Shown here in pieces: positions 25,641 to 57,133 of a DNA stretch of 64,000 bases (the first letter of the stretch is position 1; the number at the start of each line of letters is the position of its first letter). The stretch lies in assembly GCF_011492945.1 (NCBI RefSeq), contig NZ_CP045119.1, forward strand, positions 1,178,001 through 1,242,000. Reading direction: 5' to 3'. Origin of the DNA: Rubrobacter tropicus (GTDB lineage: Bacteria; Actinomycetota; Rubrobacteria; Rubrobacterales; Rubrobacteraceae). Both the position numbers and the translations under genes were made by a program. Below the pieces are notes generated by a model. The model ran no database searches and had not been told where the DNA came from. It saw nothing but the letters and a program-made list of their open reading frames with translations.

Positions 25641-25909
25641 GCCGCGCTAAGCGGGGAGATGGCGATGCCCTGTACCTGCGATCGCCTAGCAGGGCCTAAT
25701 TCCCCGCCCGAGGCGCGAACCGGGTTCGGTTGAAACCGGTGCGGCCGGCGTTGATGGCCTGGTCCCGGGCAATGGGGCCCCGTGAACCGTGTCAGGACCG
25801 GAAGGTAGCAGCACTAAGCGGGTAACCTCATGTGCTACGGGGCAGCCAGGCCGGAGTCGGCGGCCGGAAGTTCGCCGAACGCGGTCGTGTCGACGGCGGG
25901 GTGCGCGGT
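25641..25909 (+). ncRNA. ffs: Signal recognition particle RNA, large bacterial type
   Basis: About 269 nt. The S domain is unmistakable: GTGTCAGGACCGGAAGGTAG followed by CAGCACTAAGCGGGTAACCTC. The 5' part carries an Alu-type fold (GGCGATGCCCTGTACCTGCG and TAGCAGGGCC). The ends pair: CCGCGC at 25642 with GCGCGG at 25903. It binds Ffh to target nascent membrane and secreted proteins. Most actinobacteria are known for the short 4.5S form, so the long form is a useful taxonomic hint. A T5 tract follows, then a separate strong hairpin terminator. Confidence 0.93.
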
Positions 25910-25918
25910 ATTTTTGTA

Positions 25919-26080
25919 GCTGTCAGCCATCAGCTTTCAGCTAGTCGTTTCGGGGCAATTGTTTGCCCCTTTTTCGTATCTTCTTGGCGGGGCCATGTCG
26001 GGTGACGGTTTACGCACCTGCGTTGGTCTGACCACGGAGAAGCTGACGGCTGACAGCTAAGAGATGGCTGTCAAGCCGTC
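25919..26080. repeat. TCAGC/GCTGA inverted-arm element, copy C, enclosing a terminator
   Basis: Left arm GCTGTCAGCCATCAGCTTTC (25919 onward), right arm AGAAGCTGACGGCTGACAGC (about 26038-26057). Between them lies the hairpin terminator at 25952-25974. The right end adjoins an 8-bp inverted repeat GTCAAGCC-GTCA-GGCTTGAC (26070-26089) just before dnaX. Confidence 0.7.
25952..25974 (+). terminator. Intrinsic terminator downstream of the SRP RNA
   Basis: GGGGCAA (25952-25958), loop TTGT, TTGCCCC (25963-25969), then TTTTT. A perfect 7-bp stem with a 3' T run; the textbook terminator of the window. Confidence 0.9.
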
Positions 26081-50556: not shown

Positions 50557-50562
50557 GCCCAC

Positions 50563-50725
50563 GTAGTAGACAGGCGGCGGAGGGACGCAGGAAGCCGGTT
50601 CGAGTCCGGCGCGGTCCCGCCACTGTAACCGGGGAGCGAGCCCGAAGAGGGGCCACTGGCGGCCGAAAGATCGCCGGGAAGGCCGGGGGAGCGAAGATCC
50701 GGGAGCCAGGAGACTGGCCTTCCGC
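50563..50725 (+). promoter_or_regulatory. Cobalamin (B12) riboswitch
   Basis: Contains the class I elements in order: AGGGACGCAGGAAGCCGG, the GCGGTCCCGCCACTGTAACC segment, the GGGAAGGCCGG region, and the B12 box GGAGCCAGGAGACTGGCC (50701-50718). Downstream a CGGGG-CGAGGA-CCCCG hairpin (50741-50756) precedes the GGAGG site of cbtB, so control could act by masking translation. It should repress the whole cbt-cob operon when adenosylcobalamin is abundant. Confidence 0.95.
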
Positions 50726-50770
50726 CCGCGAAGTTCCGACCGGGGCGAGGACCCCGAGATGGAGGTTTTG

Positions 50771-51000: not shown

Positions 51001-51720
51001 ATGATCTCGCCCTACCTGCGCCGCGGCCTGGCCGCCGGCCTGCTGGCGGGCCTCCTCGCCGGCCTCTTCGCCTTCTTCGTGGGAGAGCCGCTGCTCGACC
51101 GCGCGATAGCCCTGGAAGAGTCCCACGCCCACGGTAGCGCCGGACACGGTGCCGAAGACGAGGTCTTCGGCAGGACCACACAGAAGGCTGGCCTGTTCTT
51201 CGCCACGGGACTCTCGGGGACGTTCCTCGGCGGGCTTTTCGGGATGGCCTTCGCGTTCTTGCGCGGCCGGATGGGGCAGAGCAGCGACTGGGGGCGCAGC
51301 CTCTCGTTGTCGGCGGCGATCTTCGCTGGCTTCGCCCTGATCCCGTTCATCAAATACCCCGCGAACCCACCTACGGTCGGCGACCCCGAGACCATCGGTG
51401 CCCGCACCACCGCGTACTTCGCCCTGGTCGGGCTCTCCCTGCTCGCCGTTCTCGCCGCCTGGTACGCGGCGAAGCTGCTCCGGGACCGCGGCGTGAGCCA
51501 GCCCGCGCGCCAGATCGCCGTGGGGATTGGGCTCGTGATCCTCTTCTCCGTGCTCTTCGTGACTTTGCCCGCCTCCGCCGACCCGGGCGATTTTCCGGCG
51601 GGCCTGCTGTGGGATTTCCGGATCTCGTCGCTCGGCACGCAGGTCGTCCTCTGGACTGGGCTCGGGGTCGTGTTCGGCGCCCTCTGCGAGCGGGCGAACC
51701 GCAAACAGGCGCCGCTTTGA
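51001..51720 (+). CDS. cbtA: CbtA, cobalt transporter membrane subunit
   Basis: A 239-residue protein with five to six helices and a conserved first region (AAGLLAGLLAGLFAFFVGEP). An extracytoplasmic His/Glu-rich loop, EESHAHGSAGHGAEDEVFG, is likely to bind metal. Later segments match the CbtA family (TLPASADPGDFPAGLLWDFR). It starts 14 bp after cbtB; its TGA overlaps the TTG of cobQ. It would import Co2+ for the corrin ring made by the enzymes downstream. Confidence 0.92.
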   Translation: MISPYLRRGLAAGLLAGLLAGLFAFFVGEPLLDRAIALEESHAHGSAGHGAEDEVFGRTTQKAGLFFATGLSGTFLGGLFGMAFAFLRGRMGQSSDWGRSLSLSAAIFAGFALIPFIKYPANPPTVGDPETIGARTTAYFALVGLSLLAVLAAWYAAKLLRDRGVSQPARQIAVGIGLVILFSVLFVTLPASADPGDFPAGLLWDFRISSLGTQVVLWTGLGVVFGALCERANRKQAPL

Positions 51721-53363
51721 ACGGCGCCCTGCTGGTCGCCGGCACCCACTCGGACGCGGGCAAGAGCGTGGTCGTCGCCGGCATTTGCCGGTGGCTCGCG
51801 CGGGAGGGGATAAGCGTCGCGCCGTTCAAGGCGCAGAACATGGCGCTCAACTCGTTCGTCACGCGGGAGGGGGCCGAGATCGGGCGCGCCCAGGCCGCCC
51901 AGGCCGCCGCGGCCCGAATAGAACCCGAGGCCGCCATGAACCCCGTGCTGCTGAAACCCTCAGCCGAACGCACCACCCAGGTCGTCGTGCGCGGCAAGCC
52001 GTGGGCCACGGCAAGCGCGAAGAGCTACGGCTCCATGAAGAAGGACCTGCTGCCGATAGTCCTGGAATCCCTGGAGGATTTGCGTTCGCGGTTCGAGGTG
52101 GTGGTCTGCGAGGGGGCCGGGAGCCCGGCGGAGATCAACCTGAGGCAGAACGACCTCGCGAACATGGGCCTCGCGAGGGCCGCGAACCTGCCCGTCCTCC
52201 TGGTCGGGGACATCGACCGCGGCGGCCTCTTCGCGAGCCTCTACGGGACCCTCGCCTTGCTTTCTGCAGGAGATCAGTCCTTGCTCTCCGGGTTTCTGGT
52301 CAACAAGTTCCGCGGCGACCCCGCGGTCCTGGCCCCGGGCCTGGACCGGATGACCGCCCTCACCGGACGCCCCTTCCTCGGCACCCTCCCCTTCGCGCGG
52401 GGCCTCGGCATCGACGGCGAGGACTCGCTCGCGCTGGACGCGCCGCGCTCCGTGAGATCCCCGCTCGGACGGGACGTGTTGCGCGTGGCCGTGGCGAGGC
52501 TCGGGCGCATCAGCAACTTCACGGACTTCGACGCCCTGGCCCACGAGCCCGGCGTGTCGGTCCGCTTCACCGGGTCTTACGAGGAGTTGTTGGACGCCGA
52601 CCTTGCCGTAATCCCCGGTACCAAGGCGACCGTGGATGACCTCCGGCTTCTGCGTTCGGGGGGCCTGGATCTGGCCTTCACCGAGCGGGCGCGGCGCGGG
52701 CTGCCGACGCTCGGCATCTGCGGCGGGTACCAGATGCTGGGGACCCGCATCGCGGACGGCGTGGAGAGCGCGACGCCCGAGACCCCGGGCCTCGGCCTTT
52801 TGCCCGTCGAGACCGTCTTCGAAAGCGACAAGGTACTTGCCCGGCCAGAAGGACGGGCCCCCGGATTCGGAGACGCGCCGGTCTCGGGGTACGAGATCCA
52901 CCACGGCAGGACGAGCGTCCACGGCGACCCGCTCTTCTCCACGGAGACCGGCCCCGAGGGCTGCCGGGCCGGCGCGACTTTGGGCACCTCCTGGCACGGC
53001 GTCCTCGAATCCGACGCCTTCCGCCGCGCCCTGCTCTCGTGGGCCGCCGCCGAACGCAACCTCGACTGGAGGCCGGGAGAAGAACCCTTCGCCGCCGCCC
53101 GCGAAGCCCAGCTCGAAACGCTAGGCGACCTCGTAGCAGAGAACGTGAACAGGGAGGCGTTGATGCGTATCGTGGAGAACGGCGCGCCGGCAGGAATGCC
53201 CGTGGTGAGCGCTCAACTATCAGCTTTCAGCGATCGGCAAACCACCGACGCGGGTCTTCCAGACCCGGACACGGATATCCCACCAAGAAAGGGCGGGGTT
53301 CCGGCACCAGAACCGGCCGTGTTTGCGGCAACGAGCAACGACAACCCACGGAGCAAAAGCTGA
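51717..53363 (+). CDS. cobQ: Cobyric acid synthase
   Basis: A 548-residue amidotransferase. An N-terminal dethiobiotin synthetase-like ATPase has GTHSDAGKSVVVAGI, PFKAQNMALNSFVTREGAEI and VLLVGDIDRGGLFASLYG. The C-terminal class I glutaminase domain has the Cys in LGICGGYQMLG and a downstream His. It amidates four side chains of adenosylcobyrinic a,c-diamide. TTG 51717 overlaps cbtA's stop. The family normally ends near residue 500; residues about 500-548 (SAQLSAFSDRQTTDAGL and on) are translated from a repeat element inserted at the 3' end. Confidence 0.93.
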   Translation: MNGALLVAGTHSDAGKSVVVAGICRWLAREGISVAPFKAQNMALNSFVTREGAEIGRAQAAQAAAARIEPEAAMNPVLLKPSAERTTQVVVRGKPWATASAKSYGSMKKDLLPIVLESLEDLRSRFEVVVCEGAGSPAEINLRQNDLANMGLARAANLPVLLVGDIDRGGLFASLYGTLALLSAGDQSLLSGFLVNKFRGDPAVLAPGLDRMTALTGRPFLGTLPFARGLGIDGEDSLALDAPRSVRSPLGRDVLRVAVARLGRISNFTDFDALAHEPGVSVRFTGSYEELLDADLAVIPGTKATVDDLRLLRSGGLDLAFTERARRGLPTLGICGGYQMLGTRIADGVESATPETPGLGLLPVETVFESDKVLARPEGRAPGFGDAPVSGYEIHHGRTSVHGDPLFSTETGPEGCRAGATLGTSWHGVLESDAFRRALLSWAAAERNLDWRPGEEPFAAAREAQLETLGDLVAENVNREALMRIVENGAPAGMPVVSAQLSAFSDRQTTDAGLPDPDTDIPPRKGGVPAPEPAVFAATSNDNPRSKS

Positions 53364-53389
53364 TGGCTGACGGGCTGAAAGCTGAAAGC
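53216..53389. repeat. TCAGC/GCTGA inverted-arm element, copy J, inside coding sequence
   Basis: Left arm TATCAGCTTTCAGCGATC (53218-53235), right arm GCTGATGGCTGACGGGCTGA plus AAGCTGAAAGC (53359-53389), about 120 bp apart. The left arm encodes part of the CobQ tail. The right arm contains the CobQ stop, the CobN ATG and the first CobN residues (ADGLKAESA). Elsewhere this family is strictly intergenic. Confidence 0.7.
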
Positions 53390-56300
53390 GCAAGAGCAGC
53401 GAAGCTGCTCTTCCTGACCACCGCCGATACCGAGATCCTGGCCGCCGCGAAGGCCGCCGAACGCCTCCCCGAAGGCTTCCCCTCCGTCCGGTGCGCCAAC
53501 CCGGTCACCCTGGACGACCCGGCGGCGTTCTTTGGAGGGGAGCTTCCGGGCGCGCGGGCCGTGCTGGTGCGCCTGCTCGGCGGGCGGCGGGCGTGGCCCG
53601 AGGGGTTGGAAGCCCTGCGCCGGCGCTGCGACGAGGCGGGGATACCCTTGCTCCTCTTCGGCGGGGAGGCCGAACCCGACGCGGAGCTGACGGCCCTCTC
53701 GACGGTTCCGTCGGGGACGGTGCTGGAGGCTTTCGAGTACCTGCGCCTCGGGGGCGTGACGAACACCGGGAACCTCTTGCGGTTTGTCGCCGACACGGTG
53801 CTCATGGAGGGCTTCGGCTTCGAGCCCGCGGCGGCCCTGCCGGACGTGGGCGTCTACCACCCGCGCCTCGCCGAAGGGTCTTCGATCGAAGACCTTTTGG
53901 CGCTGCACGACCCGGGGCTTCCGACCGTCGGGGTAGTCTTCTATAGGGCGCACTGGATGGGGGGCAACACGGCCTTCGTGGACGCGCTGGTCGAGGCCCT
54001 GGAAGAGGCGGGCGCGAACGCGCTCCCGGTCTTCGGCTACTCGCTGCGGGCTGGCGCCGACGGGTCGGTGCCGGCGCTGGATCTGATCAAGGGTAAGGTA
54101 GATTCCCTGGTGACGACCGTGCTCGCAGGGGGCGGTTCGAACGCCGCCGACGCCCACAGGGCCGGTTCGCCGGAGGAGTGGCTTGAGTGGGAGGTGCCCG
54201 CGCTCGCCGAGCTCGGCGTCCCCGTCGTGCAGGGGATCTGCACGACGGGATCCCGCGAGGCGTGGCTCGCCTCGGATGCGGGCCTCTCACCTTTAGACAC
54301 CGCCTGGCAGGTCGCCATCCCGGAGTTTGACGGCCGCGTCATCGGCGTCCCCTTCTCCTTCAAGGAACGCCAGGCCCAGGAATCGCCCGTCGGCGCCCCG
54401 CTCACCCTCTACCGCGCCGATCCTGAAAGGACCGCCCGCCTCGCCGGCCTCGCCACCCGCTTCGCCCGGCTCCGCCGCGTCCCGAACGAGAGCAAGAAGG
54501 TTGCAGTCCTACTCTCCAACTACCCGACCAAGCACTCCCGCGTCGGAAACGCCGTCGGGCTGGATACCCCCGTGAGCGCCATAAAATTGCTCGCCGCGCT
54601 GCGCGAGGCGGGCTACGACGTGGACGGCGCGCCGGACGACGGGGACGAGTTGATCCACGCCCTCATAGCCGCCGGCGGCCACGACCTCGAGTTTTTGACC
54701 GGCGAACAACTCTCCGGCGCCGCGGGACGCCTGGACGCGAAACGCTACGCTGAATGGTTCGCCCGGCTACCTGAAGGGTTGCAAAGCGGGGTCGAGAGGC
54801 ACTGGGGGGATCCACCCGGGGACCTCTACGTTGACGGCGGCGAGTTCGTCGTCGCCGGGCTCTCTTTCGGGAACGTCTTCGTGGGTATTCAGCCGCCCAG
54901 GGGGTTCGGGGAGAACCCCATCGCGATCTACCACGACCCGGACCTGCCCCCGACCCACCACTACCTCGCCGCCTACTGGTGGCTGATCGAAGAGTTCGGC
55001 GCCGACGCGGTGGTCCACCTCGGCAAGCACGGGACCCTGGAGTGGCTGCCGGGCAAGTCGCTCGGCCTCTCGCCGGACTGCGCCCCGGACGCCGCCCTGC
55101 GCGACGTCCCGCTCTTCTACCCGTTCGTCGTCAACGACCCCGGAGAAGGTACGCAGGCCAAGCGGCGGGCGCACGCGACGGTGGTGGACCACCTGATCCC
55201 CCCGATGACCCGCTCGGACACCTATGACGACCTCGCGAAGCTCGAACAGCTACTCGACGAGTACTACCAGGTGGAGACCCTCGACCCATCCAAGCTCCCC
55301 GCCATCCGCGTCCGGATCTGGGAGACCCTCCGCGACGCCGAACTCCACCGCGACCTCGGCGTCGAAGAACAACCCGAAGAGTTCGGCGACTTCCTCAACC
55401 ACGTCGACGGCTACCTCTGCGAGATAAAGGACCTCCCCATAAGGGGCGGGCTACACATCCTCGGCGAAACCCCCGAAGGAGAGCCCTTCCGATACCTCCT
55501 CGCGGCCATCCTCCGTATAGGAAGCGGACAAATGTCCGGACTGCGCCGCGCCATCGGAGACGCGTACGGCCTGGACGAGAGAGAGCTCGCGGAGGGCGGG
55601 GGCGCCAGGGCGGAGGCGCCCGCCGCGCTCGCCGGACGGTTCCCGGGCGTGGTGGCGACGGCTTCGGACCTGATCGACCGGCTGGAGGAGGCGCAGCAGG
55701 CTCTTCTGCTTGCGATGGAGAGGCGCGGCTGGGACGTCGAAGCCGCCGGGTCCGTGTGCGAGGAAGTCCTGGGCCGCGCAGACGCGGGTGTGGAGCGGTC
55801 GTTGCGGTTCGCGGCGGGGGAGGTCGTGCCGCGGCTGGTACGGACGCCGGAGGAGATGGGGAATTTGCTCGGCGGGCTCGGGGGCGGGTACGTGCCCGCC
55901 GGGCCGTCCGGGTCGCCGACGCGGGGGCTGGTCAACGTGTTGCCGACGGGGAGGAATTTCTACTCCGTCGACCCGAAGGCTTTGCCGAGCGCGCTCTCGT
56001 GGGAGGTCGGGCGGGGGCTCGCGGATGGTCTGTTGCGGCGGTATCTCGAAGAAGAGGGGCGGTACCCCGAGACCGTCGGGATCGTGGTGTGGGGGACGGC
56101 GGCGATGCGGACGCAGGGGGACGACATCGCGGAGATTTTAGCGCTTCTCGGCGTCAGGCCGGTATGGAACGAGGAGTCGCGGCGGGTTACGGGACTCGAA
56201 GTGGTCTCGCCAGAAGAACTCGGTCGGCCCCGGATCGACGTGACCGTCAGGATCAGCGGCTTCTTCAGGGACGCTTTTCCGAACCTCATCTCCCTGATGG

Positions 56301-57133
56301 ACGAGGCCTTCACCACCGTCGCCAACCTCGACGAGCCGGAGAACGCGAACTTCGTCAAGAAGCACGCCGATGAAGAGAGAAAGAACGGCGCCGACGAGCG
56401 CCGTTCGACCACCCGCATCTTCGGCTCCAAACCCGGCGCCTACGGGGCGGGCCTCCTTCCCCTCATGGACGCCCGCAACTGGCGCGACGACGCGGATCTC
56501 GCCGAGGTCTACGCCGTCTGGGGGGGCTACGCCTACGGCAAGGGCCTTGACGGGGTGGAGGCGCGGGGGGCGATGGAGGACAACCTCAGGCGCACCGAGG
56601 TCGCCGTAAAGAACGTGGACAACCGCGAGCACGACCTGTTCGATTCGGACGACTACTTCCAGTACCACGGGGGCATGATCGCCGCCGTCCGCGCCCTGAC
56701 CGGCCGCGACCCGAAGGCGTTCATAGGCGACTCGGCAGATCCCTCCAGGGTAAAGACGAGGACCCTGTCTGAGGAGGCCAGGCGCGTATTCCGCAGCCGG
56801 GTCGCGAACCCGAAGTGGATCGAGGCCATGCAACGCCACGGCTACAAGGGCGCCTTCGAGCTCTCCGCAACCGTCGACTACCTCTTCGGCTACGACGCCA
56901 CCGCGGGCGTCGTCGAAGACTGGATGTACCGCGACGTGACCCGCAAGTACGTCCTCGATGAGGGCGTGCGGGACTTCATGCAGCAGTCGAACCCCTGGGC
57001 CCTGCGCGCCATAAGCGAGCGCCTACTGGAGGCAGCAGAGCGCGGCCTCTGGTCGGAGCCCGACCCCGAAGACCTGCAGGCGCTCAAGGCGGCGTACCTG
57101 GAGAACGAGGGAATGCTTGAGGAGAGATCTTGA
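53363..57133 (+). CDS. cobN: Cobaltochelatase subunit CobN
   Basis: A 1256-residue large chelatase subunit of the CobN/BchH family. Landmark segments are HLGKHGTLEWLPGKSLGLS, GTQAKRRAHATVVDHLIPP, NVLPTGRNFYSVDPKALP, WGTAAMRTQGDDIAEILALL, ATVDYLFGYDATAGV and EGVRDFMQQSNPWALRAISE. It inserts Co2+ into hydrogenobyrinic a,c-diamide in the ATP-driven, aerobic-type reaction. ATG 53363 overlaps the cobQ stop (TGATG); it lies within a repeat arm that provides the first residues. The natural protein seems to begin near KLLFLTTADTEIL. Confidence 0.95.
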   Translation: MADGLKAESARAAKLLFLTTADTEILAAAKAAERLPEGFPSVRCANPVTLDDPAAFFGGELPGARAVLVRLLGGRRAWPEGLEALRRRCDEAGIPLLLFGGEAEPDAELTALSTVPSGTVLEAFEYLRLGGVTNTGNLLRFVADTVLMEGFGFEPAAALPDVGVYHPRLAEGSSIEDLLALHDPGLPTVGVVFYRAHWMGGNTAFVDALVEALEEAGANALPVFGYSLRAGADGSVPALDLIKGKVDSLVTTVLAGGGSNAADAHRAGSPEEWLEWEVPALAELGVPVVQGICTTGSREAWLASDAGLSPLDTAWQVAIPEFDGRVIGVPFSFKERQAQESPVGAPLTLYRADPERTARLAGLATRFARLRRVPNESKKVAVLLSNYPTKHSRVGNAVGLDTPVSAIKLLAALREAGYDVDGAPDDGDELIHALIAAGGHDLEFLTGEQLSGAAGRLDAKRYAEWFARLPEGLQSGVERHWGDPPGDLYVDGGEFVVAGLSFGNVFVGIQPPRGFGENPIAIYHDPDLPPTHHYLAAYWWLIEEFGADAVVHLGKHGTLEWLPGKSLGLSPDCAPDAALRDVPLFYPFVVNDPGEGTQAKRRAHATVVDHLIPPMTRSDTYDDLAKLEQLLDEYYQVETLDPSKLPAIRVRIWETLRDAELHRDLGVEEQPEEFGDFLNHVDGYLCEIKDLPIRGGLHILGETPEGEPFRYLLAAILRIGSGQMSGLRRAIGDAYGLDERELAEGGGARAEAPAALAGRFPGVVATASDLIDRLEEAQQALLLAMERRGWDVEAAGSVCEEVLGRADAGVERSLRFAAGEVVPRLVRTPEEMGNLLGGLGGGYVPAGPSGSPTRGLVNVLPTGRNFYSVDPKALPSALSWEVGRGLADGLLRRYLEEEGRYPETVGIVVWGTAAMRTQGDDIAEILALLGVRPVWNEESRRVTGLEVVSPEELGRPRIDVTVRISGFFRDAFPNLISLMDEAFTTVANLDEPENANFVKKHADEERKNGADERRSTTRIFGSKPGAYGAGLLPLMDARNWRDDADLAEVYAVWGGYAYGKGLDGVEARGAMEDNLRRTEVAVKNVDNREHDLFDSDDYFQYHGGMIAAVRALTGRDPKAFIGDSADPSRVKTRTLSEEARRVFRSRVANPKWIEAMQRHGYKGAFELSATVDYLFGYDATAGVVEDWMYRDVTRKYVLDEGVRDFMQQSNPWALRAISERLLEAAERGLWSEPDPEDLQALKAAYLENEGMLEERS

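Follow-up and report, generated by a model that had tools for sequence, protein, structure and literature searches.

Short repeats that carry a stop codon are known from Beggiatoaceae and Cyanobacteria as TAACTGA heptamers (MacGregor 2015, PMC4679880). These TGA-bearing 7-nt units are mostly intergenic and overlap the stop codons of upstream genes and the ends of the encoded proteins; in the forward direction they present stops in all three frames, and in reverse they are open. The unit is invariant and forms direct repeats upstream of starts. Small palindromes captured as coding sequence in conserved genes have been described for the Rickettsia palindromic elements (RPE) and for the ERIC and YPAL in-frame repeats (PMC2229807); RPE copies lie within genes, are translated there and possess a conserved core. 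REP/BIME sequences and 3'-end stem-loops (PMC3733652, PMC1590033) are abundant, extragenic and inverted, and are enriched behind stops and in convergent regions. Termination-reinitiation pairs at ATGA or TGATG overlaps are described in PMC6728339.

The repeat at the cobQ/cobN junction reported here is likewise built of 7-nt units with a TGA, mostly intergenic, and overlaps the stop and the protein end of the upstream gene. Unlike the TAACTGA heptamers, its units are GCTGANN or CCTGANN with two variable bases, they form inverted, matched arms behind stops, and one run provides both a stop and a start. Like the RPE it is a small palindrome captured in conserved genes, but its loops are unrelated and it supplies a stop/start junction. 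It shares abundance and position with REP/BIME, but has heptad or octad arms of variable number and long loops in a genome without a Y1_Tnp match. Its TGATG joins co-directed genes as in the pairs treated in PMC6728339; unlike the overlaps described there, this one derives from a dispersed repeat and shifts by one unit between species. TAACTGA heptamers, RPE/MITE fusions and REP-like 3' elements are thus the closest systems, and none matched in all tested defining features. No report on this point for Rubrobacter repeats was found in the open literature.

Structure of the cobQ/cobN junction

The window, the whole stretch of 64,000 nucleotides that was analysed, corresponds to C1:1178001-1242000 of a 4.58-Mb Rubrobacteraceae genome (G000). 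A preliminary description, made from the sequence, had reported a repeat element at 53216-53389 that forms the end of cobQ and the start of cobN. The element proved to be real: inverted heptads make up the tail of CobQ, the overlapping TGATG and the opening codons of CobN. The features of the locus are as follows.

51717..53363, plus strand: cobQ (cobyric acid synthase), 548 aa including the repeat-derived tail; start codon putative
53217..53238, minus strand: left arm, reverse-oriented heptads (CTATCAGCTTTCAGCGATCGGC on the plus strand), coding for QLSAFSDRQ of CobQ; stop-free in every frame
53239..53356, plus strand: loop of about 118 nt, fast-evolving codons of the CobQ tail
53357..53389, plus strand: right arm, forward heptads GCTGATG GCTGACGG GCTGAAA GCTGAAAGC, with the cobQ stop, the cobN start and the ADGLKAES codons
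53361..53363, plus strand: cobQ stop TGA, inside the first right-arm heptad
53363..57133, plus strand: cobN (cobaltochelatase subunit CobN), 1256 aa including the repeat-derived N terminus
53363..53365, plus strand: cobN ATG, overlapping the cobQ stop by 1 nt; CobN models align from residue 12
53391..53411, plus strand: short perfect hairpin AAGAGCAGC-GAA-GCTGCTCTT over CobN codons 10-16

The unit of both arms is the GCTGANN heptad, arranged as an inverted pair (TCAGC...loop...GCTGA); the best ungapped arm pair is 15 nt long and 93% complementary. The left-arm core, TCAGCTTTCAGC, lies inside cobQ, though not in the last codons of the gene as had been stated: some 45 codons separate it from the CobQ stop, and it marks the point where the extra tail begins. 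A ribosome-binding-like GGAG is present within the loop at 53351-53354; no such site was seen before the cobN ATG in several other junctions.

The claims that CobQ is about 45 residues longer than its family and that both protein ends are foreign to their families agree with the protein models. The NCBIfam match for cobyric acid synthase (587 bits) covers residues 4-486, and CobQ continues for another 62 residues; 72 residues follow its DLVAEN-type motif, compared with 23-36 in three element-free Rubrobacteraceae. The NCBIfam match for cobaltochelatase CobN (TIGR02257, 1227 bits) likewise leaves out the N terminus. Since no further in-frame ATG, GTG or TTG of cobN comes before the end of the conserved LLFLTTADTE stretch, the conserved N-terminal region of CobN is kept by just one ordinary start, the heptad ATG.

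Hairpins like that at 53391-53411 occur at the equivalent place in the species of L055, L156 and L064 (species are cited here by the handles of their loci) and are broken in others. An Rfam search gave no match at the junction. A Cobalamin riboswitch (RF00174, 82.8 bits) is located at window positions 50558-50736, upstream of the cbtA-like, cobQ and cobN genes.

Reading frames of the heptad arms

The capacity of the element to be coding can be read directly from its sequence. Whichever bases fill the spacers, (TCAGCNN)n and (TCAGGNN)n contain no stop triplet, and (GCTGANN)n presents TGA in successive frames, because 7 equals 1 modulo 3; MacGregor noted the same stop/open asymmetry in TAACTGA heptamers (PMC4679880). 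A gene that loses its stop before such an element is therefore read through the stop-free left arm and, provided that its frame stays open across the loop, ends in the right arm. In the heptad variant GCTGATG an ATG overlaps the TGA, so that in GCTGATGGCTGA the stop/start overlap is made by the heptad itself. The preliminary description had the element "keeping" the TGATG overlap; the overlap is there, but its origin was understated.

A dispersed heptad family at gene 3' ends

With at most two mismatches allowed, the right-arm 16-mer has 10 matches in the window (0.02 expected), and the pattern RGCTGANNGCTGANRGC has 592 matches in the genome and none for the reversed control pattern; the junction repeat is therefore not a product of chance. 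Counts of the heptad pattern in relatives from the family ranged from none to 138, and CCTGANR heptads are also present in many of them. The reversed control (AGTCGNN heptads) gave 19-56 matches in genomes G020, G023 and G028, which suggests a third heptad flavour.

A census of runs was carried out on 1.6 of the 4.58 Mb, sampled as stretches that were 86-88% coding, with genes called by a simple codon-usage caller. Here 187 of 197 GCTGA runs were intergenic. Neighbouring runs, of both flavours, were oriented TCAGC...GCTGA in 66 pairs and with the opposite polarity in one, and reverse arms lay at a median of 21 nt behind a gene stop. Of the intergenic regions, 55 of 182 between convergent genes, 99 of 857 between tandem genes and 10 of 188 between divergent genes contained runs. 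The spacing of heptads was 7 in 338 cases. Loop lengths fell into two classes, of about 10-20 nt and about 80-120 nt, and arm flavour in pairs across the family was GG in 71, CC in 14 and GC in one. The heptads are thus a family of dispersed inverted repeats at the 3' ends of genes, of which the cobQ/cobN copy is a long-loop representative at the usual place. No other run in the sampled 1.6 Mb combined a stop with a start; a few had one of the two. A second gene of this genome, C1:997692-998630, has reverse arms inside its coding sequence and its stop in the right arm, like cobQ.

A conserved core between the arms was not found, as a loop-to-loop search yielded only six weak matches. A mobile unit with a conserved core was thus ruled out, the loops of the other copies being unrelated. 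A RAYT-driven REPIN was likewise ruled out: PF01797 (Y1_Tnp) was not matched in the genome, while control genomes were positive.

Octads of the form GCTGANNN build intergenic arrays of their own, with 144 neighbouring pairs in the 1.6 Mb (130 intergenic), for example at C1:36455, 39179 and 316602, sometimes beside GC-rich hairpins such as GAGCCCGAAGGGCGCAGCG. The existence of this family weakened the idea that the 8-nt step in the right arm is a unique adaptation avoiding an in-frame cobN stop; mixed triples of 7 and 8 nt were rare (6 vs 141). A large bacterial SRP RNA lies at window positions 25642-25941, with a reverse heptad arm within 20 nt after it, and the 3'-end preference of the heptads may extend to RNA genes.

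The junction in related species

Orthologous cobQ/cobN junctions were fetched from Rubrobacteraceae relatives and read. A heptad-type stop/start was present in 17 junctions from several genera, some of them decayed. Orthologues with such a tail and N terminus, which the preliminary description had named as evidence against its reading if they came from distant relatives, were present within the Rubrobacteraceae and not beyond the family. The right arm coding for MADxLxAE, with its 8-nt step, is common to species of g1, g6, g8 and g13.

The element is absent in L069, L073, L150 and L151, where CobQ ends 16-36 residues past a DLVAEN-like motif and CobN begins directly at (M)xILFLTTADTE. Other arrangements were also observed. 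L146 shows an ordinary ATGA overlap of 4 nt. In L147, from the same genus and without junction heptads, no stop separates the genes, and cobQ and cobN are fused into one ORF of 1861 aa (L239:919-6504, G024 C1), whose linker (…DLNGPKNRPDAGHVLFFTTADTEV) is about 90 residues long. In L053, L057, L059, L068 and L143 several hundred bases, similar to each other, lie between the genes, at the site taken up by the heptad junction in other relatives; at least those of L057 contain a 128-aa ORF (L057:5605-5991) with a hydrophobic C-terminal half.

The proposal that an intergenic element was captured as coding sequence thus holds in that the ends are repeat-derived and missing from the four deeper, element-free relatives, but the capture is old. 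The heptad-type junction in 17 relatives of several genera indicates that it predates these genera, and a recent, species-specific capture is ruled out. The trees of CobN and CobQ do not resolve their deep nodes, and single and multiple gains are both compatible with them.

Overlap size and evolution of the CobQ tail

Among the 17 junctions, cobQ and cobN share 1 nt in nine species and 8 nt in the other eight; the two values lie one heptad apart. The loops of the sister species L060/L064, L054/L063 and L049/L050 are related (z 7.4-9.3); their lengths differ by 16, 23 and 47 nt, none divisible by 3, and in all three pairs one sister has the 1-nt overlap and the other the 8-nt overlap. Because TGA occurs in successive frames, the heptads re-close cobQ at the cobN ATG after frameshifts in the tail. 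Values of dN/dS were 0.52-0.96 for the CobQ tail and 0.13-0.27 for the protein cores. The junction is conserved while the tail peptide is weakly constrained.

Arm flavour, predicted pairing and alternative explanations

Left and right arms were TCAGC/GCTGA (G flavour) in nine species and TCAGG/CCTGA (C flavour) in four, with no mixed case, so that the arms were concordant in 13 of 13 scorable species. In a tree of the flanks the C flavour occupies three or more separate positions (L049/L050, L052 and L065). The predicted fold pairs the arms around the cobN ATG (z -3.7). Left arms of G species reached -63.3 kcal/mol with right arms of G species and -43.7 with those of C species, i.e. pairing was weaker across flavours (permutation over species, kinship ignored, p 0.002); arms of the same species paired no better than with arms of other species of the same flavour. 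Predicted pairing was weak in L051, L054, L141 and L158, and the little pairing in the first three indicates that the stem is not essential everywhere. The matching of flavours could result from selection on the stem, arm-to-arm copying or replacement by resident elements.

The strongest alternative takes the junction as an inert leftover: the tail and the N terminus are tolerated, the overlap persists only through the supply of TGA and ATG by the heptads, and the stem has no coupling function. The near-neutral dN/dS of the tail agrees with this, as do four more species (L051, L054, L061 and L141) in which the left arm is decayed and the overlap retained, and the abundance of a heptad family that seems dispensable at orthologous places. 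The 1- or 8-nt overlap in 17 of 17 junctions despite frameshifts in the tail, together with the complete concordance of arm flavours, speaks against it. We rate an inert leftover just short of even chances.

Repeated independent insertion or replacement by elements of either flavour, rather than one capture followed by turnover of the arms, would account for sister species of unlike flavour (L055/L065, L067/L052 and L129/L049). The C-type loops of L049 and L065 are also closer to one another (z 8.3) than to the loops of their own relatives (z 1.3 and 0.6), a likeness that is partly due to the shared C-type right arm. A multiple alignment, however, keeps the loops of both flavours in register, and the MADxLxAE right arm and its 8-nt step are alike in g1, g6, g8 and g13; we consider repeated insertion rather unlikely. 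The junction may also have been transferred horizontally, as regards which sister species stay together in trees of the flanking 200+200 residues and the L049/L065 likeness has the partial explanation just given. That the tail of CobQ and the N terminus of CobN serve as functional extensions of the proteins and resemble the repeat by chance is very improbable, for although G-type CobN N termini have MADxLxAE in several genera, both arms repeat at the DNA level, the reading frame changes between sisters with dN/dS at 0.5-1.0, and C-type species have unrelated MP(D/E)T termini instead.

Discussion

We consider it likely, with good confidence, that the cobQ/cobN junction is an ancient, frame-tolerant stop/start junction derived from a captured 3'-end heptad element; the gene starts behind this explanation are those of a simple caller. 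We infer the following order of events at capture. A heptad inverted repeat of the kind usually found behind gene stops would have been present at the cobQ/cobN junction in an ancestor of several Rubrobacteraceae genera. The old cobQ stop would then have been lost or bypassed, so that ribosomes read through the stop-free left arm (TCAGCNN)n and the loop until a TGA of the right arm (GCTGANN)n ended cobQ, and GCTGATG would have supplied the cobN ATG. The outcome would be a nearly neutral CobQ tail and an overlap of 1 or 8 nt that outlasts frameshifts in the tail, since either one TGA or the next is in frame.

A role of the junction in translational coupling is plausible. The predicted stem between the arms would hide the cobN ATG from independent initiation, and cobN would be translated mainly by ribosomes that finish cobQ, melt the right arm in doing so and start again at the overlap, in the way described for TGATG pairs in PMC6728339. 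A further step would be to regard the heptad array as a selected, self-restoring coupling module, in which staggered TGAs re-close cobQ, compensatory selection or arm-to-arm copying preserves the complementarity of the arms while their flavour changes in three or more lineages, and the repeat regulates cobN translation. This reading is tentative, and we think it more doubtful than probable.

The junction is a documented example, traceable through the phylogeny, in which intergenic repeat DNA has turned into the end of one protein and the start codon of the next. It also indicates how a 7-nt period can shield the junction of two operon genes from frameshifts. The same should be within reach of any heptad family that bears TGA, which gives a testable rule for the way such repeats act on gene ends. 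For the Rubrobacteraceae themselves, the C terminus of CobQ and the N terminus of CobN are, in the many species concerned, not to be taken for functional domains.
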